Positions 4,001 through 57,928 of a stretch of 64,000 bases of DNA are shown piece by piece. A program made the translations under genes and the position numbers. The number at the start of each line of letters is the position of its first letter. The stretch's first letter is position 1. Source of the stretch: Tubiluchus corallicola (taxonomy: Eukaryota > Priapulida > Priapulimorpha > Priapulimorphida > Tubiluchidae); the NCBI GenBank assembly GCA_030141605.1, contig JAQGDQ010000003.1, positions 2,189,501 through 2,253,500 of the forward strand. The letters are read 5' to 3'. The notes under the pieces are model-generated. The model was not told where the DNA came from, ran no database searches, and saw only the letters and a program-made list of their open reading frames with translations.

Positions 4001-7000
4001 TACAGCAGCATTTCAGCTCGTAAAACCAGCAGGACGCCATCTCGCAGTTTGAAACAGATGGAGCGGGTGTTGATGTTGTTTTTCCTGCTCCCATTTCCCT
4101 CAACTTTGCTTAGAGTTCAGCTAAAGAGTACATGGAACGCAGAGACTTGGAAGCCTAAACGTTTTGGCCAGAAACTGGCTGAGATGTTTCTATTTTAGGA
4201 TTTTATCAACAAATTCAGTTTTAAATTAGTGCAGTTTCTTAGCATATTATCTATACTTGTTCATTCTGTTAAGATTAACATTTATTGTAGAGGTCCTTGC
4301 ACTCATAGATGTACAACTCTATCAAATGAAATTTTACTTTCCCTAGATCGTCTCAAACTCTAGATATCAGAGTGTACGTTTTACTATATTTAGCAGTCAG
4401 ACTTATCTGATAGCAAAAAGTCTTAAAACTGTAATAATTATCAATAATTAGGTGTATTGCTAAAATTTGCGGGAAAGTGAATGTTAGTTATCAAAAGAGT
4501 GGCATGAGTGTATTTTTGAAAATATCTCATTTGATGCCAGAACCGTGGAAGGCTTTGGGAACTTTTTTAAAACTGCTTTAACAAATTCCTGTAAGTCTAC
4601 CATGACCACGGTCGACCAATCCCTGTATTAAGTTGCATGTAGATACATATTTATATGCTATATAAATATATATCAAACTTAAAGTAGTAACGTTGCATAT
4701 AAAATTGTGGAATAAATTTGATGGAAATTTTTAAATATAATGTTTTCAGTAAAGTGAGTTAAAGTAACTTTATCTGTGAAACATCAAGACGTTCCTGTTT
4801 AGTCTTCATCCTGTAATACAGTATTTAAATGCAGCATTTTTATTAATAATCATTCTACTTTGTTCATTTACAGTGGGATCTAGTTTGTGACAGAGCATGG
4901 CTTGCCGCTATGACACAGACAATCTACATGCTCGGTTTCCTAATTGGTTGTGTGGTATTTGGCTCGGTATCAGACAGGTGAATTTCTAAAATTATTTACG
5001 TTTGCAGTGGCTGCCTGTATGCATTGGTATCTCAGTGCTGTGAAATCTGACTAAAACGGTAATTATAATACAAAATGACACTATTTCTTAACTTTTCAGG
5101 ATATAAAGACAAGTGAGATCACACTGCTCAACGATTCTTACTGCTCATTAATCCACTAATATCCCATTTCTTTTTCCCTGTGACTAGAAGTATAACTAAC
5201 TACCTGGAATAATTTCCATGTGATTTTGCAGTGAGTGAAAATTTGAAGTGTCAATTTGATTTTGAATTACATGACGAATTACAACGTCTGGCGACACGTG
5301 TTGTGTCCATTTTTCTCTGGGAGACTAATTACCTGTCTTCTCTTACTAACTATAGGTGGCGGAGAGTGAATTGAGTACATGGATCTTCTGTGGAGCCAGC
5401 TTGCTACAGTTTTTTGTTTAGGTCTAAGCTGAGAAATTTTCAGAATTGCATTTATTTTTTATAGAGAATAATCGCATTTACACAATTTTTCAGACTTGGG
5501 CGGAAAAGATGCTTTTTAATCACCATAGCATTGATGGCTGGTATAGGAACAGTTATTGCATTTTCCCAGTCTTATCTTATGTTTGCTGTGCTTCGACTGT
5601 TTCTTGGGGCTACCTCAGCTAGTGCATTCAGTACTGGATTTGTTTATCGTAAGTGCAACTTAATTTTGTTATCGCTTTTTGAGTGCTTGGAAGAATTTGC
5701 TTCAAAGTATTGAAATTACATGTATAATATACATTTTAAAGTGTTTTGTAGCCTTAATATTTGTAGTTTTTATGCTAAATGAATGGCTGAATGTTCTGCA
5801 TTAACATACTAATTGGCATATTCTGCATATTTAAATTCAATATAAGTGATCAGTAATCTAATCCAGTAAATGTTTTTTGCTAAATAATTTTAGTCAAGCC
5901 AGATATATTAATATTTTTCCTTTTAAGAATTATTACTAGTCAGTGACTGCATGATATACATATATGATTACATGAAAAATTTAAATAGGATTGTTTTTAA
6001 TGTTGCTTATCATCTATCTATGTATAATTATAATATTTAACAAGCAATTGCAGGTTTGAAACTCCATCTGTGCAAGTTGAAAAGCTTTGCATATTTTTAA
6101 AGCACTTAGTAAGGCTATTAACACTATAATGTTCATATTTTACCCTTCTTTAGTTCAAAAGATATTTTCCCATCCTGGGTCTAGGTACTTTAGTTCATTA
6201 TGAACCATGTCCATAGTAAGTTTGATAGTAGTGTTAGAAAAATAGTAACATTTTTAAATTTAGCAGAAACATCCTGTGGTTATCAGCATTCCAAAATATC
6301 AGTCGGTAACAGTGTCTTGGGACAGTTTGTTAGAGGAATGGCCTAGTCATTGGAAAAGGACAGTTAGCACATTGTCAAAATTGGGTGGTTTGTTCGTGAC
6401 TTGTATATTTACACGAGTGATTAGGTAGATGGGCACTGTACTAGATTTTAAAGCCTTTTTGAACTTATTTTTCACACTTTTTATACCTAGCTATATTTTT
6501 TACATTTAGCTACATTTTTAGGTGGGACAAGTACATTTAGACATTTTGCCCAATGGTTTTTGTTTGTAGTTGGGCATTTATCTGCTTTAGGTCATGGCTT
6601 CCGCAGTGGAACTCGGATTTCATTGCTGAATGATTCTTAATGGAAATGGATCATTTCTGTCTCCTTCAAAACCTTCCCTGCATTCACAATGTTATACTTT
6701 CACTATTTTCGTTTGCCTTGACATGTGTGTAATATTTTTGCCTTTCCAGTGTATTGATTAACCATTTCTGTACATTTCCCTGCATTTGTAAAGCCATTCA
6801 CAACTATCCTTTCATTTGCTTGTTGGTTTATGCTGTTTTTTCACAGCATTTTATTTCAGCAATTGCGCTGATTTTGGGGCGAAGTCGGGGACGCCTGTAC
6901 ATGTGTTCAGGCAAAATCAGTGGGAAATCGTGGCGCTAGGATGTGCTTTGTGTATTCACTACACAAGCATTAATACATGTTGGATTACGACATAGCGATG

Positions 7001-16000: not shown

Positions 16001-19000
16001 ATGGTTTCATGGACATCTGACTCGCACTGATTTAGCCTTATCGGCTTCGACGTTGTACTACTACTACTACACACATATGTAGAATGACTGCTACACTGAA
16101 TACTGAGAACAAGAGTGTCCTGCACTGATCACTGAGAGTTAGACAGTAAGTAACATGAGTATCACGACTGCTGCACTGCACTGAGAGTGTGAGTCAGACA
16201 GGTGTGTAGCACGACTGCTGCACTGCACTGAGAGTGAGACAGTGACTAAAAAGTAAATTCAGTCAGTATATATAGGTATAGGTAATTATGCAAACTTGGC
16301 TTCACAAAACCCATTACTGTAAAATAGGGAGAGATCCAGTGAATATGCATATTCATTGGACCGTACAATTATACTAGGGGTGAGTTTAGCTAGTAAAATG
16401 TAAACGGATTAGTTAATAGATGGCAGCACCTAAAAATATACAGTTACAGTTTCCACAAGCTGATATTGCAAATGCACATTGTTTTAGTGTTTTATATATG
16501 TTTGATGTTTCACATTCTTCTAGCTTTAATCTATATGTAGCTAATATATTATGTAGTGAAAACTTTGCTAGCCTTATAATAATATATTTCAATGTGTCAT
16601 AATATTATCATTATGTCATTATGCTTGCAAAATTCTGATTTTAGCATTAAGCAGACTGCTTGTAATGCTTTTTATGCAGGATGGTTGTTGCCATGGTGTA
16701 TTATGGGCTGTCATTAAACTCTGTGAATGCTGGTGGCAATCCGTACTTAAACTTCTTTCTCTCTGGAATAGTGGAGGTTCCAGCTTATTTAGCTGCTATT
16801 CCAGTCTGCGCTTTATTTGGCCGTCGACTACCTCTTATTGGAACCATGTTGTTAGGTGGTGTGAGCTGTCTTGTTGTAGCTCTTCCCATGACCGAAGGTA
16901 AAGTGCTTATAGTTATTATTGTATTTCTGATGCAATCACAGGAAAGTATTTTATAAATACTTATTTTATCTGTTGCTGCTGATTAATTGTATTCCCAGCA
17001 GGATGTAAGTTGCCCAGGGAACTGAATTTTTTTCTAATTATATATGCCTCAAGATAAATATACCAAACTTGGTTTCCTTAGATAGATTCCCAGAAGTCAC
17101 TTGTTAACTGTTGTTCTTATAAATGTAATTGGTATTTTATTTTCATTACACTTGGACCTTATTTTACTTTTTAGCACATACATGGGTTATCGTTACTCTC
17201 TCGACCTTTGGGAAGTTTTGTGTCTCTGTGACTTTTGCCATTATCTATCTGTACAGCGGGGAAATCTATCCAACAGTGATCCGTCAAGTAGGCTTAGGAA
17301 GCAATTCTATGGGAGCTCGCATTGGTGCCATGGTAGCTCCGCAAATTTCCCTTTTGGTATGCTTACCCTTATTATAAACTTATTTACCGCACACTGCATT
17401 TGTTTACAATGAACAGAACCTATTGTAGGAATGAAGTATATTTTAAAAACAGCTGCCATGTTCTTAATATTTTGTTGTCATCAGCACTATGTTGCTTTTT
17501 CAAAGTTTTTGTTGAAATTTTTGACACTTCTTTTTGTGTTAGTTAATGCTTTGTGTACCTTCTTTGCTGGTGTTCAGTATGTTTCAGCTGTCCTAAATTT
17601 GTCCAAAAGTGAAAGTGGAAGCCTTGTTCGTGACGCCATGATTTTATCTATTTACTGTTGTTACTCATAGATTATGCCAGTTTGCTATGGGGAACTAAAC
17701 CAGCAAATTTGTTTTTTTCAACAACCTTTTTTATTCAGTACTGTAAGCAGTCATTTAGTGAGACTGTTAACAAAAATAGTGCACTGGAAATTACATAAAT
17801 GAACAATGTCAGTTTTTTAAATATATCAGGTCGTATATTTTGTGCACAATATTTTTGCTATTACAGCAATTCTTCTTCTTCCTAAATAAGTCTAGCTTAG
17901 CAGTCTTTACTGTTCTAAAACTTCTAATACATGCCGTCTTATTTTATTTATACAGAGCAATTACGGCAGGGAGATTCCGTTTCTAATCTTTGGTATATCA
18001 GCAATTGCTGCGGGAGTTCTTGCCTTGGTTTTACCGGAGACAAAGGACAGGCAGCTACCAGAATCGATCACTGATGGTGAACTTTTCGGAAAGTAAGTGT
18101 CTGTTGTTCTTTCCTTTTTTGTTGGCTTGCCTTTCTGTATGACTGTATTCCTTTCTCAGTTATTTGTTTCATACACATGTATAATGTTGAACTTGATTTC
18201 AAGGCTAAACATTTCTTTGAAGTGTTTTAAATAGCAATGTCAACTGATTTGATGCCATTTCACACTGTTTATACAGTTACTTGCAGCACTACTTAATACT
18301 GAAATATACCATTTTGATTACATGTCAATTATTATTTCATCGTGCCAAAAAAGATTTAATATAGACTGAGGCTTTTCTATACTCACATTACTTGCATTAG
18401 AATCTTACTAAAATACCTTTAAAGAACTTTTGTTTTTGATAACACATTACATAATGTCATAACTCAAGTGTACAAGATTCAATTCCTTTGTGCAGCTTAA
18501 CAGCTTTGAAGTAAAAACCTAACCTAATCGTCCTTCTTTTCACAAAAGTTCAAGGAATATATTCTGATGAACTAATCAACTAATTAAGTAACTAATTAGG
18601 CGCTTTTGTCGTGTACTAACTGTTTTTCCAGCATGCCGCGCAGTTTTCTAATAGTGCGATTGTTGAGAGTTGATGTCTTTGCTGTAAGGCAGACAGTCTC
18701 TTTAGTACTTTATCAAGGGTGGACTGGCCCCTCTGGACACCCGATTTTCACTTACTTCGAACATAGTTATTTACACCAGTATGGTGTGCTGAAAATTCTG
18801 CTCATTTTGGTAAATAACTCGACTTCTTTTGACATATCTAGAGTTAAGCGAAGTTAAATGGCAAATAGGAATACACTCTACACTATACTTTCATAAGTAC
18901 ATTGTAACAATTTATATGGCATTACCAAGTTGGTAGTTAATGAGTTGGAGTTAAAGTTGGAGTTTTTTAAAATAGCTAAAATTTAAAATTATACTTTTTA

Positions 19001-27269: not shown

Positions 27270-30200
27270 CATCTGCATCTACAGGACCAGTTAGGATCTG
27301 TCTTTCACATCCTGGTCAAAAATGGCAAGTACTAAAGGCTGCTAAAGATTTACACAAAAAGAAGGATTGCAAGGATATCTATGTAAATCCTGATCTCACC
27401 TGGCGTGAACGTGAGGACAATAAAAAGCTAGTCAGCGAACTAAAGTCAAGAAGGGCCAAAGAAGAAAAAGCTAAAATACATAAAAACCAAATAGTTAGCA
27501 TTGATGATGATAATATTACCCACTCTCCTATAAAGCACATTCTTCAGACCAGCATTCCGCATTCGTGCAGCAACAAGATGGAAATGCAATGGCAGCTTTT
27601 ACCGAAAGCAATTGTGTACCGATTTCCACGTCAGATGCAAATGACATGGAATCTGTCGAAAGGGAACTAGAATCTCCGGAACAAGTATGTGAAGATGATA
27701 GTGATGCAGGATCAAACCAAAAGACATCACATAAAACCTGCTTGCTACCTGAATTAAATCAACAATTACAACAAACTACTACCAGTCCTAGGAATAAAAC
27801 TTCAATTATCACTGGAATGATAGACCAGTATTTAACACCACCATTAACTCGCCTAAAATCGGTGGTTACGAAGAAAAAGTGACATTTGAACACCAACCAC
27901 TCAGCTGTAAATAGTGTATATATTTCTAATAACAGTGTGCAAACTAATACTGTAAATTTAATAGTGAAAAACAATGTGAAATCCGGTTCTGATAAACAAA
28001 AAAGTAAAAAGTGCAACTCTGAATCACTGAGAAAACCAAACCACAATAAAAATGTAAAACTGTTGTTTTCCAATGTTGACTGTTTAACAAATAAAATGCA
28101 GGATATAAAAATAAGATTACTGGAATTAAAACCTGACGTGATCTTCCTGTCTGAGATAAATCCAAAAAATGTTAGATATTCTTTGCAACACTCTGAATTG
28201 ATTCTGCCGGAATATGATATGTTCAGCAATTTGGATGAAAGAGGCATTGTCCTTTACGTGAGATCTGACTTGGCGCCAATCCAAGTTATGCATTTATCAA
28301 ATATTTTCACCTCCTCTTTATGGGTTAAGATTTTTCTGCTAAATGGTAAAGAAGTCTTATTTGGAGGCGTATACCGAAGTCCATCATCTGGTCATAAAGA
28401 AAATGAAAACCTGTTTAGATTGCTGGTACAGTTAAACAAAAGAAAAGAAAAATTGAAAGTCGTATGTGGAGATTTCAATTTTAGTAAAATAAACTGGAGT
28501 ATATGGAGTGCTTCTACACCAGAAATTAGCTTAGAAAACACATTCTTGGACACTTTACGTGATGGATATATGGAGCAGCTAGTAACCTTTCCAACTAGAT
28601 ATAGGGCTGGCCAAAATCCTACTTTACTATATTTATTGATTGTTAATAATCCGCACATTGTATCAAACCTACAGTCACATTTACCAATTGGTAAAAGTGA
28701 CCACTTAGTTATATCATGCAGCATTGAAGCTTCTTGGGAAGTTAAGATTACTAATTATAAGAAGTATAACTTTTACAGAGCAGATTATACAGCTATAAGA
28801 AACTACTTAAACTCAAAAGACTGGGATGTAATTTTTCAAGATAAAGACTTATTTGCCTGCAACAGCACATTGGAAGAAATATAGCATATAGTAAGAGATC
28901 TGTATGTACCAGTGCAAAAACAAGGCAATAGTCAAAAGCCAAAGTGGTTTAATAATGAAATAAAATTGAAACTTAGGCAGAAGAAAGCTGCTTGGAGAAA
29001 GCACCAAAGAACAGCTTCCCGTGCCAACTATGAACGATACGCTCGAACTAGGAATGATGTTACAACATTAGTTAGATCCGCGAGAAGAAATTTTGAACAA
29101 AAATTGTCGGAAGAATGTAGCAGTAATCCTAAAGCTTTCTGGGCATATGTAAATTCCAACTTAATGAAAAAAGAAAGGGTAAGACCCTTAAAAAGAGAAG
29201 ATGGTAGCATTGCCACCACCGATCAAGAACAGGCTAACGAATTACAAAATTTTTTCACATCTGTCTATACAAACGAAGATACAAGCCAAATTCCTCAGCT
29301 ACTACCAGTAACCGAGTACAAACTTGATGTGAGCAGTATCAGTGAATTAGAACTTAGTACAAAAATTAAAAAGATGAAGGTCAACAAATCTATGGGGCCT
29401 GATGGGATTTATGCAAGTATAATTAAGAACAACGAGGATATCCTTATAAGACCAATGCTACAGATAATGAACCAAACTTTATCCAGTGGTATATTACCAC
29501 CGAGTTGGAAAATGGCCAGAGTTTCTGCTATCGATAAAAAAGGCGAAAGAGATTTAGCAAAAAATTACAGACCTATCAGCCTGACATCAGTCGTTTGTAA
29601 ATTGCTAGAGGGAATACTAAGGAATAAAATCTACAACTTCATTACTGAACATAATCTCATGACAGTCAACATGGCTTCAGAACTGGCAGATCTTGTACTA
29701 CCAATGTATTAGTTTCTCTTGAAGAATGGATGGATTTACTTGAGAACAAAGGCGAAGTTGATGTTATCTATTACGACTTTTTAAAAGCATTTGATCGAGT
29801 ACCCCATCTGAGACTTCTGCAAAAACTTGAAGCATACGTAATTTGTGGTCACCTGCTAACATGGATTAATAGTTTTCTCTGTGGAAGAAGACAATGTGTA
29901 GTAGTTAATGGGCAAGAATCAGAATGGGCAAATGTGACCAGCGGTATACCACAGGGAAGTGTGCTTGGACCTATTTTATTCACTATTTACATAAATGATC
30001 TTCCTGAAGTTTTCAACTGCGGTAAGAGCCTGTTTGCAGATGACACGAAAATATATGGTAAAGCATGCTGCCTGGATGATTTTGAGGTCATGCAGAATAA
30101 TATTAATTATGCCGACCAATGGAATTTAACACTGAAAAATGTAAGCTCCTGACTGTTGGAAGGCATAGTACTGCAGGTCGTATATATAAAATGGCACATG

Positions 30201-31020
30201 GTCAAGGTTCTAAAGAAATTATAAGTGTCACAGAAGAAAAAGATCTGGGTATTACCATCGACGGTATGCTAAACTTTCAAACACATATAAACAACGTTGT
30301 CAATAAAGCACATGGAAGACTGACATTGATCAAACATAGTTTCCCTTACCTTGACGGACCTATGGTGACCAAACTATACAAATCAATGGTTCGTCCTATT
30401 CTGGATTATGGTGATGTGATTTGCAGCCCAAATCGTCAAGACATGATAAGAAAAATTGAAAGTATACAACGTCGAGCTACTAGACTTGTACCTGCCATTT
30501 CTCATTTACCGTAAGTTGCAAGACTTAAGATTCTGGGCCTTACAACTCTGAAATACAGACGCAAAAGACAAGATTTAATCCAAACATTCCGTATTCTTAA
30601 AGGCATAGAAACCATCAACAGTGAAATATTTTTTCACCGACAGACATATCATGGTATCAGAGGTCACTCCTACAAAATCAAGAACAGAACAGTTCCCCAA
30701 AGGTGGAACAGAAGAAGATTCACATTTGCAAGGCAAGTAATTAATGAGTGGAACAAGCTGCCTGACCATGTAATATAATCCCCCAATCCTGCCCAGTTTG
30801 AGTCTCGTCTCGATAGATTTTGGAAAAATAATGCTGAAAAATATATAGACCCCAGGTTGCCACAATGGCAACAAGAAACCCTATGCTTCGCTTCGTGATC
30901 ACAGTGTCGCCACCCATTATGTATTCTTAAATAGTGATAAAGTAAACAAGGAAGAATGGAGAGGTTTATAAGCTATGTATGCTGAACCTCTATCCTTCGA
31001 CGGTAACGGTAATGGTAATA
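27270..31020 (+). pseudogene. Long CR1-group LINE with ORF1 tail, endonuclease and reverse transcriptase
   Basis: The order is: ORF1 C-terminal domain (27286-27540, with QKWQVLKAAKDLH and PDLTWREREDNKKLVSELK); after a frame change, ORF1 tail 27565-27882 ending YLTPPLTRLKSVV; a TGA stop; then, in the same frame, ORF2. The endonuclease (about 28050-28730) has VKLLFSNVDCL, LSEINPK, GVYRSPSS, GDFNFSKINW and SDHLVISC. After one in-frame TAG at 28882 the RT follows, with motif A YYDFLKAFDRVPH, motif B GIPQGSVLGPILF and motif C FADD. Frameshifts lie near 29665 and 30120; late stops are at 30513 and 30776. The copy is nearly complete downstream of ORF1 and therefore fairly young. The 5' part of ORF1 is missing. 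The 3' end meets a TA microsatellite. Confidence 0.9.
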
Positions 31021-38845: not shown

Positions 38846-39105
38846 CATCTCACATTTTTGTAAGACCAATCTCTTAAAGGTTAAATGATACAAAACCAAT
38901 GCAGAATCAATTTGCTTTAGGAAAGTTCTCGGATGCATAAAAATAAGCACACTTTCACTTCTATTTAATAGATTTTTTATGCAACAGTTATTAAAAAGTG
39001 GCTGAACAGTGCACTTTTATATAGAAAACACTAATTTCATATTTTGTGTTAACTGTAGTCAGAGACTCAAGAGCGCATAATTCATGTGATTTTTGTGGAC
39101 TTTTT

Positions 39106-42100
39106 TCAGTACTTGATTGCATCCGACTTACTTGTTTGTGTGGTCATGTGCCTTTTGGTAAAATATGTACAATATGATACAAAGCCAGATGAAACAAATG
39201 TGAACGAGAAAATGACCAGAAGCCCAAACTGCTGAGGATTGGGAAACAGAATGACAAGAAGAGACTTGAGCATATTCATTTGCATGTTCAGAGACTGTTG
39301 TACCCCAGTGACTATTCCGATCTTTGTTTCATCAACATTTTCTTGTAATATCTGTGTAACGGTGAGATCGATCATCCACAAACCTAAAAATATTAAAAAA
39401 ACGATTTGCTGCCACTACCTTTTGTCTTTGTTCTGATATGTACAAAACCATATTTCTAGAAAACAAGCCATTATGGAAATTACCTTTTTGGCATGCAATT
39501 TTGCAATATTTAATAGCTAAGTTACTTTTGAAATTATATTGAAACTGATTGCTCAGTTAATTATAGACAACCTAATTTTCAATATTGTTATTCGGGATAG
39601 ATTGATCTCACATTCATTTAAGTTTTTGAGACCAAGCATGCCTGAAAGGAAAAAATGTGGAAAAATCAGAACTTAGCCTGGATTTGAACATGGAATCTTT
39701 GAATTCCGGGTTCTGTTTCAGTCTCGATGATTTTCCAATCCTTCCTAGCGATTCATTCATTTGGGCGAAACCTTTCTAGGCACCTTACATTCTGCATTAA
39801 CATTTCTACAAGGACTAAGTTGAGTTGCAGTTCTATTTAATGGCCAAATAAAACTTGTTTGTTATTGTCGCATAAATGTGCATTGCAGTCTTGTAGGTAC
39901 TGCGAAGTGAGTTTAATTAGTTACCTATTCTAGCTGTAACTACACCAGTGAAGAACAAAGCCACGGATATCATTGATTCTGGAGGTGCAGATTTTATTTC
40001 TTCCCAAATTTGAGTGAAGCCATCTGTGGCTTCTGTGCTGCTTTGATTAACAGCTGTGGTTGTTTCAGTTGTATTTTCTGCTTTTGTAAATGTTGCTGTC
40101 AAGTCGAAGGAACTGCCTGGTGCCCACATTGATGCTAGGGACAATATCAGGCAGGCAATCTAACAATATAAATAAGCTTTGTGTTTAGATTTAGAAGTTT
40201 ATCAACAAATGTTGAACAGTTTGAATAAAAATTCATAACGATGTTAGAGTTAAATTTGTACATGGGTAACAATTAAAATATCTAGCCTTTTATGTGCAAA
40301 CATAGTAACGCTATTCGTATTAAGAACTAAGTCACCTGTCCAAGCAATGAAAATAAACCTGTCTTATCCAAGCCTATATGCTTTCTCAGAAGAGGAAAAA
40401 TGAATGTTCCTATAATTCCAGTAACTGCAGCAGCAGCATTGAGAATGCTAAGAAGAAATTCACTCAAGCCTTGGCTGTAACCATAACCTAAAATGTATTA
40501 AAATAACATGTGGAATGTCATTGCTTAGGCAGATACTATTCAGAGTATAAAGACGCCTGTTAAAAGCTATACGTATGTCTAATGAAGTCAGCTTTCATAA
40601 TGATGTTCAAAAGTCATTAATGTGTATTTATTTAATATGAAACAGATTACAAAATTACTTCTATGTGTGTATCACTCTTATTTTAGTTTAGTAAATGCAG
40701 ATGTTGTGTGGGTTGTTTTAAAAATTTAGAATACTGCTGTTTCCCTAGAGTTTGCTTTATTGACAAGGTATATTTCAGTAAAAGATATGCTTGGGATATT
40801 ATTCCATAGTGCTTGGTTTTTGCATGCAAATTTTCACTTTCACAAATGAGACAATCAAATGTCATTGTGACAATAATATTTAACTTCGAGTTTCTAACTT
40901 ACAATTAAAATATTTAAGTACCAATAGTGATATTGTCAAATCCCATAACTGTCATGTAAAGCAGTGCCAGTCCGGCTGGTGCTATGTAGTGATGAAAGTA
41001 TGTGCTCCAGTCTTTGAGTTTCTTACATTTGTTTCTTAAGCAGACTGGCTCTGAATAGATAAATAAACTCTTATAATAGCTATCTTACCGTAATTTGCCT
41101 TACAGGTTACATATGGTCTGTTTTTATTGGTAAAGGTCATGGGCGCCGCTACAGTTTAAAAAATTTAACGCATAAGCAGCTAGCGGGTCTGGTTAATGTA
41201 ATGGGGAGGGGTAATGTATTTTCCTGTACTTAAGCACATTTTGGAGGCCTCAAATGAGATCTAAATTCTGGTACATAGACTTCCTCAAATGCAGAAAAAT
41301 TCTGCTTTAATAAATATATTTTACCTAGGTTTACCTAGGTAATATTCATTGTATTTTATTGTAATCTTAAACCTTAAAAGCAAGTTCTTAATCTTTAAAG
41401 CAAGTTCGTAATACACTGCTGCAGATGACCTGTTACTTAACCTTAATTTATTTAGTGTCAAGATTATCTACCGAGCAAAATGTGGATAGTCAAACATAAA
41501 ACTGATTTGAGACTGTTAAATTTACAGTCCACCCACTTTACATACAAAATTTAATAAGTTGGGTGCCTGCTAATTTTGCCCACCAGGCGCAGCTAAACAG
41601 CAGAACATTTACTGCGTTTTAGAAAATTTTTGCTGTTGTCAGAAGCTGTTTCCTCAGGCAGGTTCACTTGTTTAAAACTAATTATTGTGAAGATAAACAC
41701 GGGTTGATGTGTTTCTTGGTTTACTGCTAAAAATTTTATTTAACCATGATTTTTTTTTAATTTAAGAATTTCTGTGGATGCGCATGCATCAGTGCATCCA
41801 CGTGCCAGCACCCGTGGTAAAGGTAATAGTAAGGTCAGGGTATTGTTCTTCTAAATGCCTGTGTGGTATGCTACATAAGTGTTGCAAATCAACAGTTTCT
41901 TGGTACTCTATGCAGCAGATGACTTTACTATGAAGCATGCCATATTCTGTGTTCAAACAGACCTGTTGTTGAGCCTTAAATTGCTTACCTTTTGAGTGCG
42001 ATTTGGCTTCTTTCTGTGGTATTTCTTGGTTATTATCAATTGTACCATATGTAAGTGACTGCGCGGAACCTGTTTCATCTTTGGTAGTTTGATAATCTGA

Positions 42101-45100
42101 GACTTTACCATATTTTTCATCTGAATCAGTTGTATATATTATAGTATCATGTTTTTAAAATCGGTGTTGTTGCATTGCAAAACTGTTACTGTTTACATGA
42201 AAACATTTTGCACTATGTTAAATATTACACAGTTCTAAAAAAAATTCAAGCACTTAGAAATGATGCCTGTCTTAATTATTATTAATTTTTTTTAAATCTG
42301 TTCAACACCTACCTTCCTTTCTAAGTTTCTTTGCAGCAAGTTTTGGTACCTTATTGAGCAGCTGCCGAAGAAGCAAGTACTCGACGAAAAAAGCAACAAT
42401 AAAATACACGGCTATAAAATAACATGCTACTTGCTGAGACACATATGTCATCAATTGAGCTGTAATTAGAGGTGCCACTATATTTGTTGTGAGGTCGATT
42501 CTTCGCATAATGGAATTGATATCTGAAATAAATATTTGATATCAACAGTGCATCGTTTGGAACAGAAACAGAAGTTTGTAATATTTAGATTATGCATTGT
42601 GCAATGGTCACTTTAAATCTGTCTAACTTCACATCTCACTGGAAAATTTCTAATAAATAGCCAGTAGTCTACCCAATTATTGAAGAAGAAAGCTCAATTC
42701 TGTAACAGGCTATGACCTGGCTAGTTTCTAGCTACACTATTAACTACTAATGTAGACATTACTAAGTCTATAACAACTGATCAGATTTGGAAGCCAATTC
42801 ATTTACTTATTAATTTTGCTATATTTATGTAACAAACTTGTGAGGTGGTATAAAAGCATTTAGCAATATGGTTGATCTTATCCAAAGTCTAATAAATCAA
42901 ACAAGAATGTTTAACTTACTGGACAGACAGTTTGTATCTTTATCTGCACACACTACTACCCAGTCCCATTGTATTGTAATGTTTATAGCTACCATGGCCA
43001 TTCCACTAATGTCTGCCAGCATGATTATCATAGTATCGCATAAAACATTTGCCCATCCATTCCAGGCTTGCTGAATTGTTTTGGGAAATTGCAGAAGCAG
43101 TACGATAATTGCAGAACAGATCACTAAGCTTGAATTCTGTATGAGAAGAATTGACCTAACAGCTGAAAAAGATGAAAAGGGAAGACTCTGAGAATTGGAA
43201 CAAAATTTTAAACTAAAACAGAAATTTATTTGATTATATCTGCATGACATGTTTTTGCTACAACAAGGTTCCCAGTGTGGGAGGAACGAATAAATTGTAT
43301 TCCAAGAAAGAGCTGCTTTTCATGGTAGTAAATGATGTGTGTGTTGCCTTGCCAAGTTTGTAAGTTCTTTTGATAACAAAGAATTCCAAAGCGTCGGCTT
43401 TTCCTTAGAGACCATAATGCTAGTTTTTAGTCAGCTCCAACAGGAACGGATGGTTAAAATAGGGGTCTGTGTACTTCTGTCAGTCCATTCGTTGTCCAGT
43501 GTGTACTATTAGTATTTTGCTTGTATTTCTACAATGAATGATCGGATCAACATGAAACTCAGACGAATAATTCTCTTGGACATGCCAAACAGCCTTCCAC
43601 AATAAAATTTGTGATTTTCAGTGTCTGTCTTAGTTATAGTTAATTAGTTAATTTTCAGAGGCCTAAAATTCTGAAGTTAAACATAAAACTAGTTGCAATA
43701 GTACGAGAGAAAAGCTAGTTGCGTACACTGGACAGAGGGATAGATGCCTGGATAGGACCCCTTTATAAGAGCTGGCATTATATTGTAATTTAAACTCAAA
43801 CCTATACCTACTGTGTACCTCTAAGTCTATTTGTTTTATCCAGCCAGTCTCCAATTAATGCCCCAAATAGCAGAACGCATCCTGAATTAGTAAAGCTATA
43901 TATGGCTGTTAAACGGAAGTTCGATTCCGGGTACAGAGCTACCAGATACACACCAAAAGCGAAACTCCACATTCGAAAGCCCTAAAATAAATGGATAAAA
44001 GGTCAGGGTGTTTACCCTGTTAAAGAGACACTTCATAGTTTTATTATTACTGCCACATTCTTGTTAGGGAACGACGATGCTTGCTTGCACAATGAACTCC
44101 ATCAAAGAGTAACTACCCCTTGTATTCCTAATTCTATAATTATTCTTTATTATCTTTTGCCAAACTTTATAAGCTTTTAAGAAATACAATAGGTCAGTAA
44201 TATATATTGTAAATCCCTAAAAATATTTTTTATTTACCCATGCTGAAACTGTATGACAACAAAAGAGAGGCCACAATTTTTTCCATTGTACTGAACCATC
44301 TTTTTTGTCATTGCTCTCCTTTTCTGTGATATTGGTATGTTCGTGTGCATCCTCTGCAAAATAGTAAAGTTCAAATTTGATTTAAATGAACATGGTTTGT
44401 GCTATACACAGATTTCAGGTTTATGGCCATGTATTATTAATTGATCAAGACTTGTTGCCTGCAGCCTTTTTGCAAGTTGTGGTCACAAAAAGTTTGTCTT
44501 TTTTATTTCTGACAGTTTTGATGTTGGATCTCGATAATTAAAAAAATAGTTGTTTGTCACGGAATTTTTCGCATAAATGAGGGGCTAGGTTAGGATAGAT
44601 GCAATTTAAAGTGCAGTACATATTACTAAGCTAGTTACACATGGCAAAAAATGTGTCTGCAGCAATGGCATATACCATCACAGACAAAAGTTGCCTGCAC
44701 ACCGCAACACAGTAAACATTTTCTAAATGACGTGTGAAAATGAAATCTTGCTTTTAATTGGTCTGATGTGGTTGTGTCTGATGGAAATATTTGTTTATGA
44801 TTTTTCTAGCGTATAGATGAGAAAAATCTGTGTCATTCAAGTTGCCGCACAGATTTTGCCCTCATGTGTCCTGGTATTCTCACACATCCATACACATAAA
44901 GTCAGCGTCCCACTGTTCTTTTCCTCGCAGCTTCTGTCCTACCATCACTCTTTCTGTCTTGCTTCTTCCGCTTAAAACTCAGTAATCATTTTACAAAATA
45001 TTCTTGCTTTAACATTTGCAAAAGTTTGAAGAAAAATGTATAACATGGCCTATTTTTCTTCCATAATACATATAGTTAAAGTGGTGAAGACATGTTACGA

Positions 45101-45148
45101 GACTACTTTATACTTACACAAATAACTCATAATCGTCTTACCATTCAT
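39106..45148 (-). CDS. SLC40A1: Ferroportin (SLC40) family transporter, 10 exons
   Basis: Exons on the minus strand: 45148-45142, 44353-44238, 43981-43819, 43162-42920, 42522-42313, 42120-41989, 41050-40922, 40487-40336, 40159-39925, 39383-39106. They sum to 1665 nt, or 554 aa (human 571), with all phases consistent. Ferroportin exports ferrous iron across the plasma membrane. Recognisable blocks: LIGDWLDKTNRLR, IQNSSLVICSAII, IMRRIDLTTNIVAPLITAQ, YMTVMGFDNITIGYGYSQG, TARIGLWMIDLTVTQILQEN and FPNPQQFGLLVIFSF. A long hydrophilic loop (about residues 235-300) and an N-glycosylation-rich extracellular loop (ENTTETTTAVNQSS) sit where the human protein has its loops. The residues matching human D39, H43, C326 and H507 are Phe43, Ser47, Asn330 and Lys502, so metal binding must differ. 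Exon 1 (ATG AAT G) is short and inferred from phase, donor GTAAGA and context; the other exons are firm. Confidence 0.92.
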
Positions 45149-45629: not shown

Positions 45630-46573
45630 GTAAGAATTTGTTAGGTGCTTGCGCCATTATAGGCTCATCCTAATAATAATTGAAAAAAGAACAAAAAACG
45701 AGGGTTTTAAGTAGTTTAAAAGGAAAAAGCTGTGCAAAACAGAGACAGAAGTGACTGATAAAAGAATGTTCAAAAAGATAGGAAAAGTGGTTTGTGAAGA
45801 TTCTCCTCAAAGATATCAGAAAGCACTCTGGGTTCTACTCAAAAAAAGAAATCAAGGTTATGACTAATGAGTCACACAGGAACAATATGTAGTTATGGAG
45901 ACTAATTTATATAAGCAGCAAACAGATATCGTTTAACTGACGATTTAATGCGGTATATGTTATAACTGGTATATGTCATCCCCATAATTATGACTATTAG
46001 CTATTTGCACACATTGGCTATTAGCGACTTATACTGGGTTTCGTTATAGTATTTACTACCACCCAGTGTACTAATATGGTTGAAAAATTGTATATCAGAA
46101 TTATCATCTATATTTGCATCAAAATAATTAGGTTAGTGACTGCAAAAATTTGAAGATTGTAAAAATTGTTATAAAGAATAATTCCATTATTAGGAAATCT
46201 GGTACACAATTTAAATTCATTATCGTCTTTAATATGATTGAAGGAAAAGATACTCATTAGGCAGTTGCCACAGACCCATAAATCAGAATTAGTTCTTATA
46301 CGTTCGAAATTGGTATTGGACAAAGGAGTACACTTCAAATGTATCCATGAGACAAGTTGGATGGACTTGGCCTGTTGATATCTAGTTCAATAGTCAATCT
46401 TTGCCTCCATTATGTGTAATCTGCTCATTAATTTGCCTTTGTTTGCCAATTAATTTTTTGTGTTACAAAACAGGTTATGTGTTGAACTTCCTGTGCTACT
46501 GAGTATATACTAAAACTGAATTTAACAATTTTGTAAAGTTTGTTCATAATACGTATTGTTCTTTTATCTTTAG

Positions 46574-49500
46574 GGACATACCCTTCTCTTCGGGCATATA
46601 CACTATTCAAACCAGTCATCCCTGCCACTTCAGCAGGACAAAAGAAACAATTTCATACATCGAATGTAAAAGCTTTAGCTGGAACTATGCAGAATCCAGT
46701 GGGTAAGTATTGAATTTCCCAGATTAAAGTCCAAGACTCCTGTTAGAATTTAATGGCTCATTTGCATGGGAAGTGTAACTTTTGAAAAAGAATAGTCAAA
46801 GTATGCATTGTAATGCATCGTGTGAAAGTTCATAATTAGGCATTTTCAGCTGTATGCGTTTATGGGTTTTCAGGTGGGCTTGTACTGGAGTGGTACGAGT
46901 AGGGCTAGAAATTGTGATCTTTAATGGGAAGGTACTGAGGCATAGAATATGTCATGTGGCAACTCTCAGAAAAGCAAATTGAAGTGTTATGGCAAAAATA
47001 ATGTTTTGGTGGTGAGGTTTTGGTTCGGGGATACTGGAAGTTTGACCTTTGATAAACAATGTGAAAAGCGTTGTGTTTTGCAACATACCATCAGGAACTT
47101 TTTCATGACAAGAGTTAAACTGTGCATACAGTGTAGTCGACATTAGAGATCATATCGAACAAGAGCCACAGCTTAATGATGATGTATGTTTTACAATTTG
47201 CTGACCACCAGGAGTGCAGATAAAAGGCTATAAATTAATGGTTATAATAGAGAACTCAATATACTCATTTTTTGAAGATGACATTTGAGTGATTTTATTT
47301 GATCATACAATATGACCATTTGACATCTTGACACTTATTAAAAGACACTTTACTTGAAATGTTAACGTCCAATGGTCTTCATACACGTGTGTGAATGAAA
47401 GTTACTGATTATTCTAAGATTTATTGGCAAATGGCACATTGTTTGTCAGAAGACAACCAATATTTCATTTTCTGATAAATAAAAAACTAAAAGATTGAAT
47501 GAGTCCATTAAGTTGTTGTGGTAAAATAAAGCAAAATAGGTAACTGTCACTGTCTATCAATAATCTATGTTTTTCTGCCAAAAGAATAAACACATGTTTC
47601 AATCACGATTGCATTATCATTAATAAAATATACAGATTAAACGAGACAAATAGGTACCTTTACATTGTACGTCCCAAAAAATTTTCCACACAGAATTATA
47701 TTACTTAGCATTATACTTACCTGCTTGAAAGACTTGTGTAACTAGAAAAGAAGATTTTTAGTAATTTAAAATGTTGATTGTCTTAGAAATATCACTGACT
47801 CACCTTCCCATCACCGCTGACTCGCCAAAAATGTATTTTTAATCTTATTGACAAGATACAGTAATTTATACTTTTGCTTTGTTAAGCTACAAGTGCTCTG
47901 ACTTTTTTTTCAAAACTTTATGCAATGTTACCTAAACTTGTTTCAAATGACCTACTGTCAAACTGGCTGTGACTAAGGTCATCTCGGGAGTTTAAATCAA
48001 ATTTTATACAATGTTGTTGCTAATACAAGCTCCATGCACAGTAATGTTTAGGTGATACAAAATTTCAAGATGAATTTTTCTAACTTTATGTAAGTAAACG
48101 GTTTTCTTGTGATTTAAGGTTTCCTTAGGTAGATTAGGTGCGTCAATCATTTTCAAAATCTGAATACTTGTAATTCTAAAAGCCACAAAAACATAGTTGT
48201 GATGACAATTCAGAGCAGACAAACATGTCTAATGACACTAACCATCCATCACAAAACTAAATTATATTTAAACCCTTAATTCATGTCTTATTATTTTCAG
48301 GTGAGAATCTGCCTGTATACACTGGACACTGGAAAGCTGAAAAGTATTTAGCTATAGGATTGGCTCTTACTGTGCCGACTGCAATTATTGCACCAAACAA
48401 TGTCATTGACTATGCTTTGGTATCTGGCATGGTTCTTCATGGACACTGGTATGAATTAAATTTTTATTTTTCTCCTAGTCATGATTTACTGTGTCTATTA
48501 AGTGGGATCCATAATTATGAAAGATTTAATGGAGAATGAACGTTGAAATTCAATAGCTGTTCCTTAAGGGAGCATGAAATTTCCTTCTTTTATTTTTGGC
48601 CCATCTGTCCCAACTTCTACTGTCAGATCTGGGGACCATTTCTAATTTTATTTGCATTATAATCATAATCAGTGTTGCTGACAATTGTTTAGTTTTAGTA
48701 TTTACATAAAATGTTCAGATATTTCAGCTTTTTACATTTATTTTTATTTACAAAATGAGTGAACTTAAATAGATATAGAAATAGATATAGAAATATTGAA
48801 ATATTTAAAAATTGAAGTCAAATATAAAACTCTCATTTTTAATTTTTACTTGCCATGTATAAATTATGCATTCTAATTTATGTTATAATGATATTTCTGT
48901 TAACTGAGGTTGTAAACAATCAGTCAGGTGTCACGCTCTCTCTGAAAGTCTTAGAGTAATAACTTACCAACGTTTGATTAATATTGACAAATGAACTTTG
49001 CAAATTTTAATATATTTGTTGCCATTTATTGTATTGCATGCTGGCTGAAAAATCTGATTCTTCAAAGTTTAAATCTGATGTTATATTGGCTGGCTTGCAC
49101 AATTTAATGCATAGTTGCTGTTTACTCAAAAATGCATTGTAAGGTTTTGTGATGTGCTTATTGAAAAGTTTGATGGTGATGCTATATTGATCGAGATTAG
49201 GTAATTGCATTACAAATTAATAACAATTTAGGAATATCACGGGTCATTTTGTGGGTTGATTTTTACCGATGTCCTATATTCAATGAACTGTCATAGGCTT
49301 CCAATGATATTGACTTGCATATATCCTATTATGTTTAGAAAGATGTTCTGCTAAAATATGATCATTTTGCATCACCATTTAAGCATTTAGCTGGAAGTTT
49401 TACTGTCTGCCAAAAACTTACTATTGTCGCTGTACTATATGAATGTGATGATGCATAAATTATTTAAGTGATGTTTTGCAAAATGTTACCGTTTTTCAAC

Positions 49501-52256: not shown

Positions 52257-55200
52257 TCATACACTGAGTGGCTGCTCAACATCAGACTCCTGTTTTACAT
52301 TAGTTTCCATACCAACTTCTTCTTCGTGTATGGCGTTGGGAACATAGTCAGCTGTTTCTACATGACTAGCCACTGCAGTACTGCTCATGGACCCATCCAC
52401 TGGATTGATTATCATAGCTGCTTCATTCAACACAAGCACTCTACTGTCATTGGGTAATTCACCTTCTTGATCAGTGGTATCATCAGCTGAAAACTGATCA
52501 ATATTTTTTTGCTGAAGCGAGTTCTCGACACCTGAAGTGTTACCTTGATCAGCTGTTGAATACTCCAGTGTATCTTCACTATCTGTATGTGTTGTAGCAG
52601 TGGAGGAAGTAGGAAGTCCATCTGTTGTTGAAGCATCAACTGCAATAGATGGCGGTATAGCATAATCCGTGTCAGCCACTCTGCTCGCAGTATCTGGTGG
52701 AACTGCATCTGTAGTATCAAAACCAGTCATGGCCCCATTTGTCGTTATTGTTTGAGATGGTAAAGAAGGCATACTGGAAACAGTGTCACCATTAGTAATG
52801 CTATTACTAATTTCACTAACCTTCAAATTATTATCAATACTGTTTCTTTCAGTTTTGAGTCTTTTTGCTGCCTCTTCAATTTCTTTCTCTGTTTTGCACT
52901 GTTTCCTATATTCCAACCATCTCTTCAGTGCAGGACTTTGTTTTCTGTCACTCATTTTATTATCCAGCGCTGAGTAAAACAGTTTTCTAATTTTCTGGAA
53001 TGCATTTAATGTGGAATATGGACACTGGGTTATGGGATCAAAATACTTGGCTGGGAGACGTGTTATCGGGCAAACGTAACGTAATGGTGGCTTCAACTTT
53101 CTCTGTGGAAAGTATTTATCAAATGCTTCATCGTCAGTGAAAGTGATAAAATTACGCGAACATTTTTCCATTCGTACACTAGAATCCTTGGCCTCTTCAG
53201 TGCTGTAAAAAATTGAAACTATACTAGTATGCATTTCACTTTATTCAAATAGTTAAAGTGTTAGATAACTATTACACAAACTAACTTGGAAAGAAATTTG
53301 TTCAAATATAAAGGCCTGGGTAAGAATTAATCTGCAAACCCGTACCTCTTACCAATTTTATTATAGAAAGGCAACGTGAACAAATAAACAGGTGAATAAG
53401 TGAATAATGAGCAAATAAATAAAATATATAATTGAATATAAATATGCGCAATAAAATGAATAAGTAAAATATGCTTACCCGTCTACATCAATCTTTTCTT
53501 CTGCATTGTTTACTTCACTTATCTCCTCAATAAGCGGCATTGTAACAGAATGGTATCGAATTATTGGCCCTGTGTACGTACGTGTGAGCTGACGTGATCG
53601 CTTTTTCTCCAACTCCATTTTAAAGTAAGTATCTAAAATTTGAAACACATTTGCATTTTAATTAGTAGACACTGATAACTTACATAACTCACAAAAGACA
53701 GCAGTTATAAGCAAAATTGTAAAACGGCAGACAGAAATACATGAGTAAATTATAAAACACAGTTTTGCGATATTATTTTACTGACCTAAAGATTTTAGAT
53801 TCTCCTCTTCTGTAATTTTAGCTTCTTCCAACAGTTCCTCTTGAGTAAGTCTGCGTACCTTATAGTAACAAGTAACAATTGATTATATCAGTAATTAGTA
53901 AACAAAAATACCAACAAGCAAACGAAATGCCAACAAGATGCTTATTTATTCAACGATGTTGGTTACTGTGGTACCATTAGTGAAGCACAAGTGCATCTAA
54001 TGATGGTAAAGTGCCTCCAAATTTCAATAAATTTAACGCCCCCATTAAAGACAATATTCATAGCAAATAAATAATTTAATATTTGTAGTTTATGTGATCT
54101 GATCATCATAATTATGTCATCAAATGATATACTCATAAGCGATGATATACTCATCGAATGCTCGAGTTTTTTGCAAGCTGCTGTAAAACAAAAATGATTT
54201 GTAAGAGTGGTCAGTGTTGGCGGTCATCTGCACTCTGCAGTTTGCGCTGAGGCTATGTTATAGCAATTTAGAAAATATTCGTCTTGTTAGCATGGCTTGT
54301 AAAAGCAAACCATGGTATAACTGAGGTTTAATGAGTCATCAGAGGCAACTGGCAAGAAGAGCAATAAAGCATACAGTTTAACATGTGCAAAATACAACTA
54401 ATCTCATACATGTCACTTAAGAGAAAAGTAAAAGCAGATTCACTAGATTGCTAAATGTAACAAACTATTTTTACTATGAGTCTTAATTTTAACTACACAA
54501 TCAATTATTACCGTCTTAGGGATAAATTAGTGACCGTGCAACATGCACAGTCTTCATATCTAAGAACTATTTTGCGCACAATATTATTTTAATTAGTTTT
54601 TTTATTACTGACTCAAACTTTATTCGAATATCTTTAATACTGAATTCAAATACAATTCAGAATAGAAATTTTGAAACTCGATATGATTCGAATGCGAAAG
54701 TTAAAAATTCGATTCGAATTTGATTTCTGGTAGAGTTTACTCACAAGTCACAACTAGTCATAAGTTAACAAAGACAAATCGGACTAACCAGACAGTTAAA
54801 TTGATTCCATCTACACTGCAGGTGTGCAAAAATACAGTTCATAGAAGAGAAAATCAACAGATCATTTTGAAAGAGACTGACATATCTGATTTCTGACTTA
54901 TGCAATAGTAAATAATAGGACCCCTCTACATTTTACAACTTTGCCACAATAATTCAACCACCTATACTAATACTGCAAAAATTTCTCTTGAACTCCACAC
55001 CACACACACTAGGCCAATATTAAATGCCCACTCAGGTGACTTGTATTTAAAAGAATTGATCCCTCACTAAAATGCAAACCAACAAACTAATGCGGCATAA
55101 AGGACAATGCAAGTGCGCTGACACTTGAAAGCAACAAAAAATGTAAAAAAAATCTTGAGAACATAAAAGAAAATTCAAATAGTGTTTCAAACAAATTATT

Positions 55201-57928
55201 ACAACTAAAAATACCTAATGCAACATATTAAAATAGGTGTGGGAATTTTTAATAATTTACTATTCGAACATTCCAAGGAAAAATTATTCGATAAATTGAA
55301 TTTTCGTCTTGGGATAGTCTCCTTCCAAGCTCACTGCGGTAGCCTGCTCGTACAAATAGACAAACAAAAATACAGCACAGCAGTTACTGTATCACTGTGC
55401 ATGTTAATTGTTGAGATGGAATGATAAATTTATGCACACCCATGCTCTTGTCTGGGCTGAACCATGTTAACTGTGGAGCCACAACTCCTGAAATTTACTG
55501 TTAAATATTCCACTATGAAGTTAAAAATGAGCAGTGCACGTAAATGATTTAATATAGAGTTTGCTGATTTTTGATAATTTAGTAAGCTTTTACATAACGA
55601 TCATTCTATGAAGTTTAAATAAACTTTTTTCAAAAAGTTCCAATACCAAGCTCTTTGACACCTCAAGGACAACTAAGTGTGTGCAGCATAACCAACTTCC
55701 CAGTAAATTACCCATGGTAATTAGCTGACAGCTTACTGCCACATACAGTTGCAAAGATTGTTTTTATCAGAACAAGGGTGTTGGCTTGTATAAAGGTTTT
55801 TTATATATGTGCAGGTGACACTCAACAAGTGGTCAATAGGATAATTGAAATAAGCTATAACAATCAGCATGTTCCCTGGAAAGTTTCAGACTAATGGCAA
55901 TTACTTTTTTGGACATTCAACTATATATAATATTGTGGTGGATCACAAGAACCAAAATTGTCCCACCAAAGTTTTAGGCTAATGTCAAACATGGCAATTA
56001 AAATAGCACTTTTAAGACATGCTACTATATACAGTTGTCCAATATGTCCTTTAGGAGGTCTTAGGGAGTTCTGAGTTCAAATACTGATGTCACCACTTTA
56101 TCTTATTCAATATCTTATTACAATAAATGCACTAGGTGTCAAATTCACTTGATATTATAAACCATTGATTTTGTGGTCTATTTTTCTAGACTAGAGAATC
56201 GCTCCGTGGCAATGTATGTGCCAAGGAGCGGTCATCACACAATATATACTGTTTTCGCTTGATAGATCGTACCAAACCAGACCAGGGCAAAGCCGATATT
56301 TCAGGTGTTGCAAAAGCATTCAAAGCTTCGAATAGTCGATTATTCATGGATATCTTTAATTAAAAAACAACAGACACAAATTGACAGGACCATGAATCAC
56401 AAACAGTGACTCATAAATGTTGTGACGATTAAGATTTTTGCATGCAATTTCTGAAACATGTTATACTTACTTCTTCGTGGACTTTATTAGTATGTTTCGT
56501 ATGTTTTTTCCGATTCGCATCTCTTTCTTGTATTCTTTTTTCCAGCTGTTTTCGGCTAGCTTCTGTTGATCTTCTAGATGATTTTCTTCCTACAGAAAAA
56601 GTTGGTGTACAACAGCAAGTTTTATCTTTTATGATTAAACTTCAATAATACTGCTTAAATACATACACAATCCCACAAAGTATATATGTATAGAACTTTT
56701 TATAAATAAGCCGCCCTTGCTTTACTCTCTTGCGATCATATTCTGTCTAAAGGTATACAGACTAACATCACGTCTGCACTAAGAATGCCATCAAATTTCC
56801 ACTAGCACAAACATTTAAATAATATTTACAGCTAAACAGTCTAATAAAGTAAGCTTCATGCATTAGACTGCTAACAAGTAAAAATGCTGAAAGAAATTAG
56901 CATTACTTGTGGCTAATTATATAATTTATTACATACGCACTCACCACTTAAAAATGCACTAGCATGCACACTACCATGTTTAACAAAGTGTTTTCTCTTC
57001 TCCACGGGTTTTGCTGACACTGTGGGTTTCACAATTTTCTTCTTTTTTGGTGGTTCCTGTACAGTTATAAATAGTTTGTTAAAATGAACAAAAATTTTCT
57101 ATAATGAAATTACAAACAACACTTGCAAATGCAGTTACCGTATTTCAATTCAAACAAATATTTGAATTCATAAAATCTTAAACCTAAATGTACTTTATAT
57201 GCTTTTGTGACGATTCCACATTTTCTTTTGGGTCCATCACCTTCTTGGTCACTGACGACTTCATCATCCTCACTAGCACTAATATCAGAGTCAGAAGAGT
57301 CATCGCTATCTGACTTCTCTGAATCATATTCTTGATCTTCTTCAACCTGCAAGAAATATATATTAACTTGAACATAAAAACAGTCCAGCACATTAGCAAT
57401 GACAGTTTCGTTAGCCAAGATGATTATAATAGTACATTGCAAAATTTGGCTAATTTTTATGTAAAATCGTGTTATTGTAAACAGCTGTCCTTATGTATAA
57501 CAGCTAAGGACAAACACACTGGTGGCTTCTGAGCACCTAACTACTTAGTACTATTAGAATGGTAAAGCTTTTCATATAAACAGACCAATTGTTTACCAAA
57601 ACCAGAGTCATAAAAAACAAACTGCCATTAAAATTTCAGTTACGTGATGCAAAGTGAATGTAGAATTTTGATTGTGCAGTTGTAAAAAATGAAGTTATTC
57701 TGCAACTGAATTCTCTTAAAGAAAATATTCATTTTGTAAATGTCACCTAAAACTATAAAACTTCAGTCAGGATGTACATAAATTTCATAAAAATTATGAC
57801 AGCTAGGAGGTATTTACATCTTCAAATCCACCGTATGTTGTTTTATAGAAATCATCCTCTTCTTCGGCGTCTAGCAATTTGGACATTCGATTGCCAGCAT
57901 TACTTCGTTTCTCTCTTGTTGCAGCCAT
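52257..57928 (-). CDS. VPS72: VPS72/YL1 histone chaperone (H2A.Z exchange), 7 exons
   Basis: Exons: 57928-57818, 57346-57194, 57056-56945, 56589-56471, 53858-53786, 53632-53479, 53202-52257. They sum to 1668 nt, or 555 aa, all in phase; the ATG has G at -3 and +4. YL1 is a nuclear subunit of the SRCAP/SWR1 and TIP60 complexes that binds H2A.Z-H2B and helps load or evict it. Residues 1-37 carry the H2A.Z-binding start (LLDAEEEDDFYKTTYGGFED), followed by an acidic stretch, VTKAYK, a basic helix, LTQEELLEEAKITEEENLKSL and TYTGPIIRYHSVTMPL. The YL1-C domain is at about 255-320 (RNFITFTDDEAFDKYFP, CPITRLPAKYFDP). Beyond it lies a Ser/Thr/Asp-rich tail of about 200 residues absent from the 364-aa human protein. 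The last exon alone encodes 314 aa. Confidence 0.95.
53859..56470 (-). other. VPS72 intron 4 (2.6 kb)
   Basis: AT-rich. It contains several TTCGAAT-type palindromic motifs around 54615-54725, 55260-55310 and 56325-56345, perhaps remnants of a small element. No exon is needed: the flanking exons join as HEE-VRRLTQEE in phase 0, as expected for the family. Confidence 0.6.

Follow-up and report, generated by a model that had tools for sequence, protein, structure and literature searches.

A ferroportin-family gene with replaced metal-ligand residues and its sister paralogue in Tubiluchus corallicola

The ferroportin gene and its replaced ligand residues

The DNA analysed here, referred to as the window, is a stretch of 64,000 nucleotides of the priapulid Tubiluchus corallicola (assembly GCA_030141605.1, contig JAQGDQ010000003.1, positions 2,189,501 to 2,253,500). 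On its minus strand, at 39106-45148, it contains a gene of the SLC40 (ferroportin) family in which several metal-ligand residues are replaced. The rebuilt chain of 10 exons encodes 554 amino acids with zero internal stops, and its introns are bordered by GT-AG in nine of nine cases, in agreement with an earlier note on this DNA, which had claimed a full-length SLC40 protein. The protein matches the Pfam family FPN1 (PF06963) at profile positions 6-430 of 430 with E 3.4e-124 and 415 bits (cut-off 24.6). A phmmer search against the PDB aligned window residues 31-536 with residues 27-541 of human ferroportin (8dl6, E 1.3e-115), and also retrieved 6vyh (E 1.9e-114), which we take to be tarsier ferroportin, and the bacterial BbFPN (5aym, E 7.1e-07, in three pieces); the names human and BbFPN were taken via papers naming other PDB entries of the same sequences. 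Identity to human ferroportin amounts to 212 of 496 aligned residues. With a full-length profile match, homology of the transmembrane core and most inner-gate residues present, the protein is a member of the SLC40/ferroportin family. An NCBIfam search of the protein gave zero matches. In 10 kb around the gene Rfam yielded four weak matches and nothing over the gathering score, and thus no iron-responsive element was recognised near the gene.

All exons lie on the minus strand. Exon 2 (44238-44353) encodes the N-terminal tail and the start of the first transmembrane helix (TM1), exon 3 (43819-43981) TM1-TM2, exon 4 (42920-43162) TM3-TM4, exon 5 (42313-42522) TM5-TM6, exon 6 (41989-42120) the central cytosolic loop, exon 7 (40922-41050) the first part of TM7, exon 8 (40336-40487) TM7-TM9, exon 9 (39925-40159) TM9, the extracellular loop and TM10, and exon 10 (39106-39383) TM10-TM12 with the stop codon. 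Human R156 corresponds to Trp161 in exon 4. The least certain piece is exon 1 (45148-45142), tentatively assigned to seven bases with the ATG; the sequence ATGAATG followed by GT in a fitting phase makes it plausible, although unproven.

Published work places the metal site S1 of human ferroportin at D39 and H43, and S2 at C326 and H507 (PMC12594662). The earlier note had used this numbering and had reported other residues at all four positions. Both statements hold, since a HMMER alignment and a separate MAFFT alignment agree on D39F, H43S, C326N and H507K. The residues in question are Phe43 (TTT, 43976-43978), Ser47 (AGT, 43964-43966), Asn330 (AAT, 40932-40934) and Lys502 (AAG, 39265-39267), all on the minus strand. 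By alignment, the window copy further differs from the human protein by N212F (Phe217, TTT, 42401-42403), S215A and M216F (Ala220-Phe221, 42389-42394) and D504N (Asn499, AAT, 39274-39276), again on the minus strand. By BLOSUM62 (score -3), the four most radical replacements are D39F, N212F, R156W and W224R.

Three technical causes of these replacements were considered and ruled out. The alignment is free of gaps in TM1 around WGFRMWSF, in TM3-TM6 and from ISVALFF onwards to where the human fragment ends, which excludes a misalignment; ligands at shifted positions, which would have contradicted the earlier note, were not present in these stretches. A splice error is excluded by the intact intron borders. 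A single-base sequencing error would be insufficient, because the codons of Phe43, Ser47 and Lys502 are at least two changes away from any Asp or His codon, and at least two base changes per codon are needed at each of D39, H43, N212 and H507.

The replacements affect the Ca2+ site as well as S1 and S2. The Ca2+ ligands of ferroportin are D39, Q99, N100, N212 and E219 (PMC9883014, PMC6079014), and D39, Q99, N212 and E219 were termed strictly conserved in the family (PMC6079014). At the latter four positions the window copy has F, Q, F and E. S1 consists of F43 and S47, and S2 of K502 and N330, with D325 kept as D329. In the N lobe, S35, Q99, N100 and E219 are retained, while the C-lobe pocket retains D325 and the family-invariant R466 (Arg461 here) and gains a lysine (Lys502). 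By homology to the Fe2+ site of BbFPN, S35, D39, N212 and S215, with M216 close by, form the N-lobe cation pocket of bacterial and human ferroportins, and in BbFPN itself D24A, N196A and the double mutant bind metal more weakly (PMC4633820). In the human protein D39E abolishes iron export, and N212Q leaves modest residual activity (PMC6079014). It was also reported that BbFPN binds nickel ethylenediaminetetraacetate (Ni-EDTA) by R348 and H261, which align with R466 and D325, and a metal-anion complex was raised as a possible substrate.

Letter by letter, the claim that all four metal ligands are replaced is correct, but it is overstated with respect to Cys326. This residue is needed for hepcidin binding, is reported to occur first in cartilaginous fish and to be replaced by another in invertebrate ferroportins in general (PMC8235187), and human C326S ferroportin exports iron normally (PMC12594662). 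Asparagine is found at this position in both ferroportins of the T. corallicola genome. Since the paralogue described below has the same TM7 motif GFDN, and since invertebrate ferroportins are reported to lack Cys326, Asn330 probably does not represent a loss. Searches of the genome for hepcidin, with a profile, and for mollusc haemocyanin were both negative, but so were all of their controls.

A comparison with bacterial ferroportins indicates which of the other replacements are the deep ones. Forty-seven matching open reading frames (ORFs) were reduced to 34 by removing identical ones. Of these, 20 came from a scan with two peptide patterns, one of which spans D39 and allows Asp or Phe, and 14 from whole-family searches without the D39 pattern, one of which matched 19 of 191 genomes. 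D39 is Asp in 33 of the 33 ORFs that have the residue (there is one gap), and N212 is Asn in 34/34; in the 14 ORFs whose retrieval could not favour Asp39, the counts are 13 of 13 with the residue and 14 of 14. The position of H43 is occupied by Asp in 33/33; at H507, 33 of the 34 ORFs have Leu or Ile and one has His. In viral contigs, 10 stretches matched a pattern, but none could be confirmed as a relative. As judged by this conservation, the deep loss in the window copy is that of D39 and N212, and less that of the two histidines, because the former are invariant in bacteria and the latter are not. The likeness of the window copy to the BbFPN-type proteins of Bdellovibrio and relatives lies in Q99, E219, D181, N174, R466, D84 and G490, present in all 34 ORFs, and in the unconserved H507; in contrast to the window copy, the bacteria keep D39 and N212, and they have Asp at H43 and His at D325.

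The second ferroportin of the genome

The earlier note had proposed to look elsewhere in the genome for another ferroportin that carries the usual residues, and such a gene was found. In the 343.5-Mb assembly, searches by family profile and by the protein itself, which weak matches can escape, matched two ferroportin loci, the window and contig C2192. COX1 had no match in this assembly. The paralogue (C2192:34799-55216, plus strand) was rebuilt from nine exons without internal stop; its first exon was not found, and an alternative donor is possible in its central-loop exon (44256-44444). Nine of nine intron phases are common to the two genes. However, the splice sites of the paralogue were selected visually on the model of the window gene, and the agreement in phase therefore carries no independent weight.

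The two proteins are identical at 270 of 538 aligned residues, and the paralogue differs by longer loops and by its ligands. It retains D39, H43, N212, S215, M216, E219, D325, D504 and H507, and in total 13 of the 14 listed cation ligands, with Cys326 as the exception, while the window copy lacks seven of those 13. A phylogeny of four animal proteins and eight of the 34 bacterial ORFs (14 names were requested, two were missing) places the paralogue and the window copy as sisters, with human and tarsier ferroportin outside (Shimodaira-Hasegawa-like approximate likelihood ratio test 95, bootstrap 96). Since human and tarsier are excluded from this pair, the duplication probably occurred later than the split from vertebrates. 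Between the copies, nonsynonymous divergence (dN) is 0.44 and synonymous divergence (dS) is too high to compute; over 538 codons, 66% of the third and 29% of the second codon positions differ. On sequence grounds the duplication is old.

The two genes differ strongly in base composition, with third-position G+C content (GC) of 0.55 in the paralogue and 0.36 in the window gene, and local GC of about 0.40-0.42 and 0.34-0.35, respectively. A contaminant origin of C2192 was considered and rejected: its GC differs, but its repeats recur on many contigs. Two of these (C1248 and C478) also carry the window retroelement, and in two contigs that share C2192 repeats, 9-kb stretches have GC of 0.33 and 0.35. 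The window's own contig (C1915) was absent among the repeat matches listed (40 candidates scored). Because of the repeats shared with other contigs, C2192 is very probably part of this genome.

Two introns of the paralogue harbour tandem arrays, one at C2192:45982-47199 and the other at about 35.6-36.2 kb; both consist of similar repeated units that are open in one frame. Units of the array at 45982-47199 are dispersed on dozens of contigs. For the array at about 35.6-36.2 kb, only C1246 matches over most of the length among the matches listed, and the stretch preceding it matches other contigs.

Other features of the window and the assembly

On the plus strand, past the 5' end of the ferroportin gene, the exon-like ORF 48261-48536 resembles CybS, the small membrane subunit of succinate dehydrogenase (E 9.4e-5, below the Pfam cut-off). 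Further ORFs on the minus strand, 52260-53240 and 57113-57490, are of the YL1/VPS72 chromatin protein type, with matches to YL1_C (E 2.5e-12, over the cut-off) and YL1 (E 1e-4, below it); of the longer ORF the first 160 residues were searched. Three plus-strand ORFs (974-1387, 5465-5710 and 17129-17374) resemble exons from a gene for an SLC22-type MFS transporter; the second and third have weak MFS_1 matches below the cut-off, and the first has none. By the look of their translation, plus-strand ORFs at 27883-30600 resemble a retroelement of the type without long terminal repeats (non-LTR) with a reverse transcriptase, and the part 28885-30600 has copies with up to 94% identity on many contigs. 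A 238-base match of 97% identity is located at 38934-39171 (plus strand) on each of the contigs C2254, C628 and C457, and matches of the same identity were found on at least 10 more contigs (40 candidates scored). This pattern points to contig duplication within the assembly or to a very recent burst.

Decay, residual metal export or a changed role

The window copy resembles vertebrate SLC40A1 in its fold (by homology), in its nearly full match to PF06963 and in 13 of 14 inner-gate residues. It differs in the replacement of D39, H43, N212, S215, M216, D504 and H507, in the lack of Cys326, and in R156W and R489I. The inner-gate network comprises R88, D157, R178, D473, N174, Q481 and others; with R489 counted, 13 of its 15 residues are kept. 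R489 is Ile in both copies, and R156W is, among the listed gates, the only change found in the window copy alone. The losses are unevenly distributed, with seven of 13 listed ligands but one of 14 gates lost (Fisher p = 0.013). C326 and R489 were omitted from these lists as positions where the paralogue differs from human, so that the paralogue keeps all 27 listed residues by construction (27 of 29 with the two restored). With both restored, the window copy has lost eight of 14 ligands and two of 15 gates (p = 0.021). D39, H43 and H507 are all lost (3/3, p = 0.02), and the 13-ligand list gives p = 0.04 against all columns common to human, tarsier and the paralogue, and p = 0.02 against the core. 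These statistics support a concentration of the losses on the ligands without being strong, and the biological weight lies in which residues were changed.

In the earlier note it was stated that this is not simple decay, and the open frame, the nine intron phases common with the paralogue and the relative-rate test agree with that. With human as outgroup, 58 changes were specific to the window copy and 46 to the paralogue (p = 0.24); for the core the numbers were 51 and 36 (p = 0.11). Because the frame is intact and the rate is not significantly raised, decay is unlikely. A pseudogene or relaxed duplicate, the frame of which is not yet broken, therefore appears very improbable to us, even though the short exon 1 is unproven, the branch of the window copy is longer than that of the paralogue (0.49 and 0.29, respectively), and more of the highly conserved columns are broken in it. 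At the 35 columns conserved in at least 95% of the bacterial ORFs and in human and tarsier, nine are broken in the window copy and three in the paralogue, all three common to the window copy. On the other side, the two copies have diverged deeply, but the window gene still has nine intact introns and 554 intact codons. It also retains 20 of the 25 columns that are invariant across the bacterial ORFs, human, tarsier and the paralogue; the five exceptions are D39F, N212F, G193A, G204A and N493T.

We judge the chances to be about even that the window copy is a duplicated ferroportin without Ca2+-activated Fe2+ binding and with a changed substrate or role. It would have arisen by duplication in the animal's own lineage after the split from vertebrates, and would have retained the alternating-access machinery for the most part (R40, D181, R178, D473, R88, D157, Q481, G490 and Y318). 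Also present are Q478 and N174, and R40 with D181 is the proposed latch. D39F, H43S, N212F, S215A and M216F remove most of the N-lobe Fe2+/Ca2+ site, and H507K and D504N replace His and Asp in the C-lobe site. The two phenylalanines at Ca2+ ligands are expected to result in poor or no binding of Ca2+ and Fe2+ in the N lobe. H43 and H507 were suggested as the titrated histidines in Fe2+/2H+ exchange, with disagreement over which way the protons are coupled (PMC12594662), and both are missing here. Since the C-lobe pocket has D325 and R466 plus a new lysine, the substrate, if any, would more likely be an anionic or neutral compound or a metal-carboxylate complex than free Fe2+, and ordinary iron export would be left to the paralogue. 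We infer the change of substrate and the division of labour between the copies from these features. In a more detailed version, the protein would have given up cation chemistry: two phenylalanines would block the N-lobe pocket, and the C-lobe pocket, in which Arg461 and the new Lys502 lie beside Asp329, would move an anion, an organic compound or a metal-carboxylate complex by the ancestral rocker-switch in a Ca2+-independent manner. This version is tentative and would more probably turn out wrong than right.

Several points weigh against a loss of iron binding with a change of role, in addition to the branch lengths and the broken columns given above. The residue lists were drawn from papers after the alignment had been viewed; the excess of ligand losses over conserved polar core residues has p = 0.08, and a narrower list, with five of 11 ligands lost, gives p = 0.16. 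The animal outgroups were human and tarsier only. S35, Q99, N100, E219, T320, D325 and D181 are kept, and some cation binding may survive. R156W together with R489I would suit a weak or dead transporter equally well. Finally, the importance of D39 is contested: as cited in PMC12594662, D39A behaved like wild type in one liposome assay, and in another the tarsier double mutant D39A-H43A showed only a modest decrease, with the S2 double mutant being slower.

Some of these points are in line with the alternative that the window copy still exports Fe2+ or another divalent metal by its residual ligands, without the classic S1 and S2. D325, D181, T320, Q99 and E219 are present, as are Asn330 and Asn499; D325 and D181 were proposed to compensate in C326S ferroportin, and the same paper cites two liposome studies in which mutants of D39 still transported (PMC12594662). 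The bacterial type has Asp in place of H43 and, in most cases, Leu in place of H507; it includes BbFPN, which moves Fe2+ and Co2+ (PMC4633820). Moreover, human H507R is classed with the disease form described as combining full iron export with hepcidin resistance (PMC7934381), so Lys502 alone is no proof of a loss of export. Nevertheless, D39 and N212 are kept even in bacteria without H43 and H507, human efflux is abolished by D39E and cut by N212Q (PMC6079014), and phenylalanine at both positions is far from the usual metal-binding side chains. We regard such residual export as quite unlikely.

Unlikely, too, in our estimate is a transport-dead pseudotransporter, which would keep the fold in order to pair with or regulate the active paralogue, or to act as a sensor. 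In line with this, frame and helices are conserved, D39E is a null mutant and D39A was reported not to move iron in human ferroportin (PMC6079014, PMC12594662), and R156W strikes a gate residue at which mutation strongly affects human transport (PMC12246770). Against it, the rest of the inner-gate list is kept, which would be superfluous in a protein that does not cycle, and ferroportin is not known to need a partner.

A further possibility, which is compatible with a changed substrate or role and would lower the rarity of the window copy but not alter its function, is that the relatives of T. corallicola all share these replacements in one member of a ferroportin pair. We consider it evenly balanced whether this is the case. 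The age of the duplication speaks for it, and some cartilaginous fish also have a second ferroportin without C326 (PMC8235187), although the latter says nothing on D39 and N212. Titles and the beginnings of abstracts, in a literature search with poor coverage of subscription journals, did not describe a natural ferroportin without D39. In plants, MAR1/IREG3/FPN3 is a diverged ferroportin branch that functions in iron homeostasis and also moves aminoglycosides (PMC8525433). It is likened here by family alone and differs from the window copy in that it belongs to chloroplasts and mitochondria and is about 20% identical to plant FPN1/2 (PMC8525433).

Thus, T. corallicola harbours a natural paralogue with most of the gates and without the ligands, beside a sister with both, which offers a ready-made comparison. 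The seven listed ligand residues in which the copies differ, D39, H43, N212, S215, M216, D504 and H507, may help to show which site is responsible for transport, for Ca2+ activation and for proton coupling.

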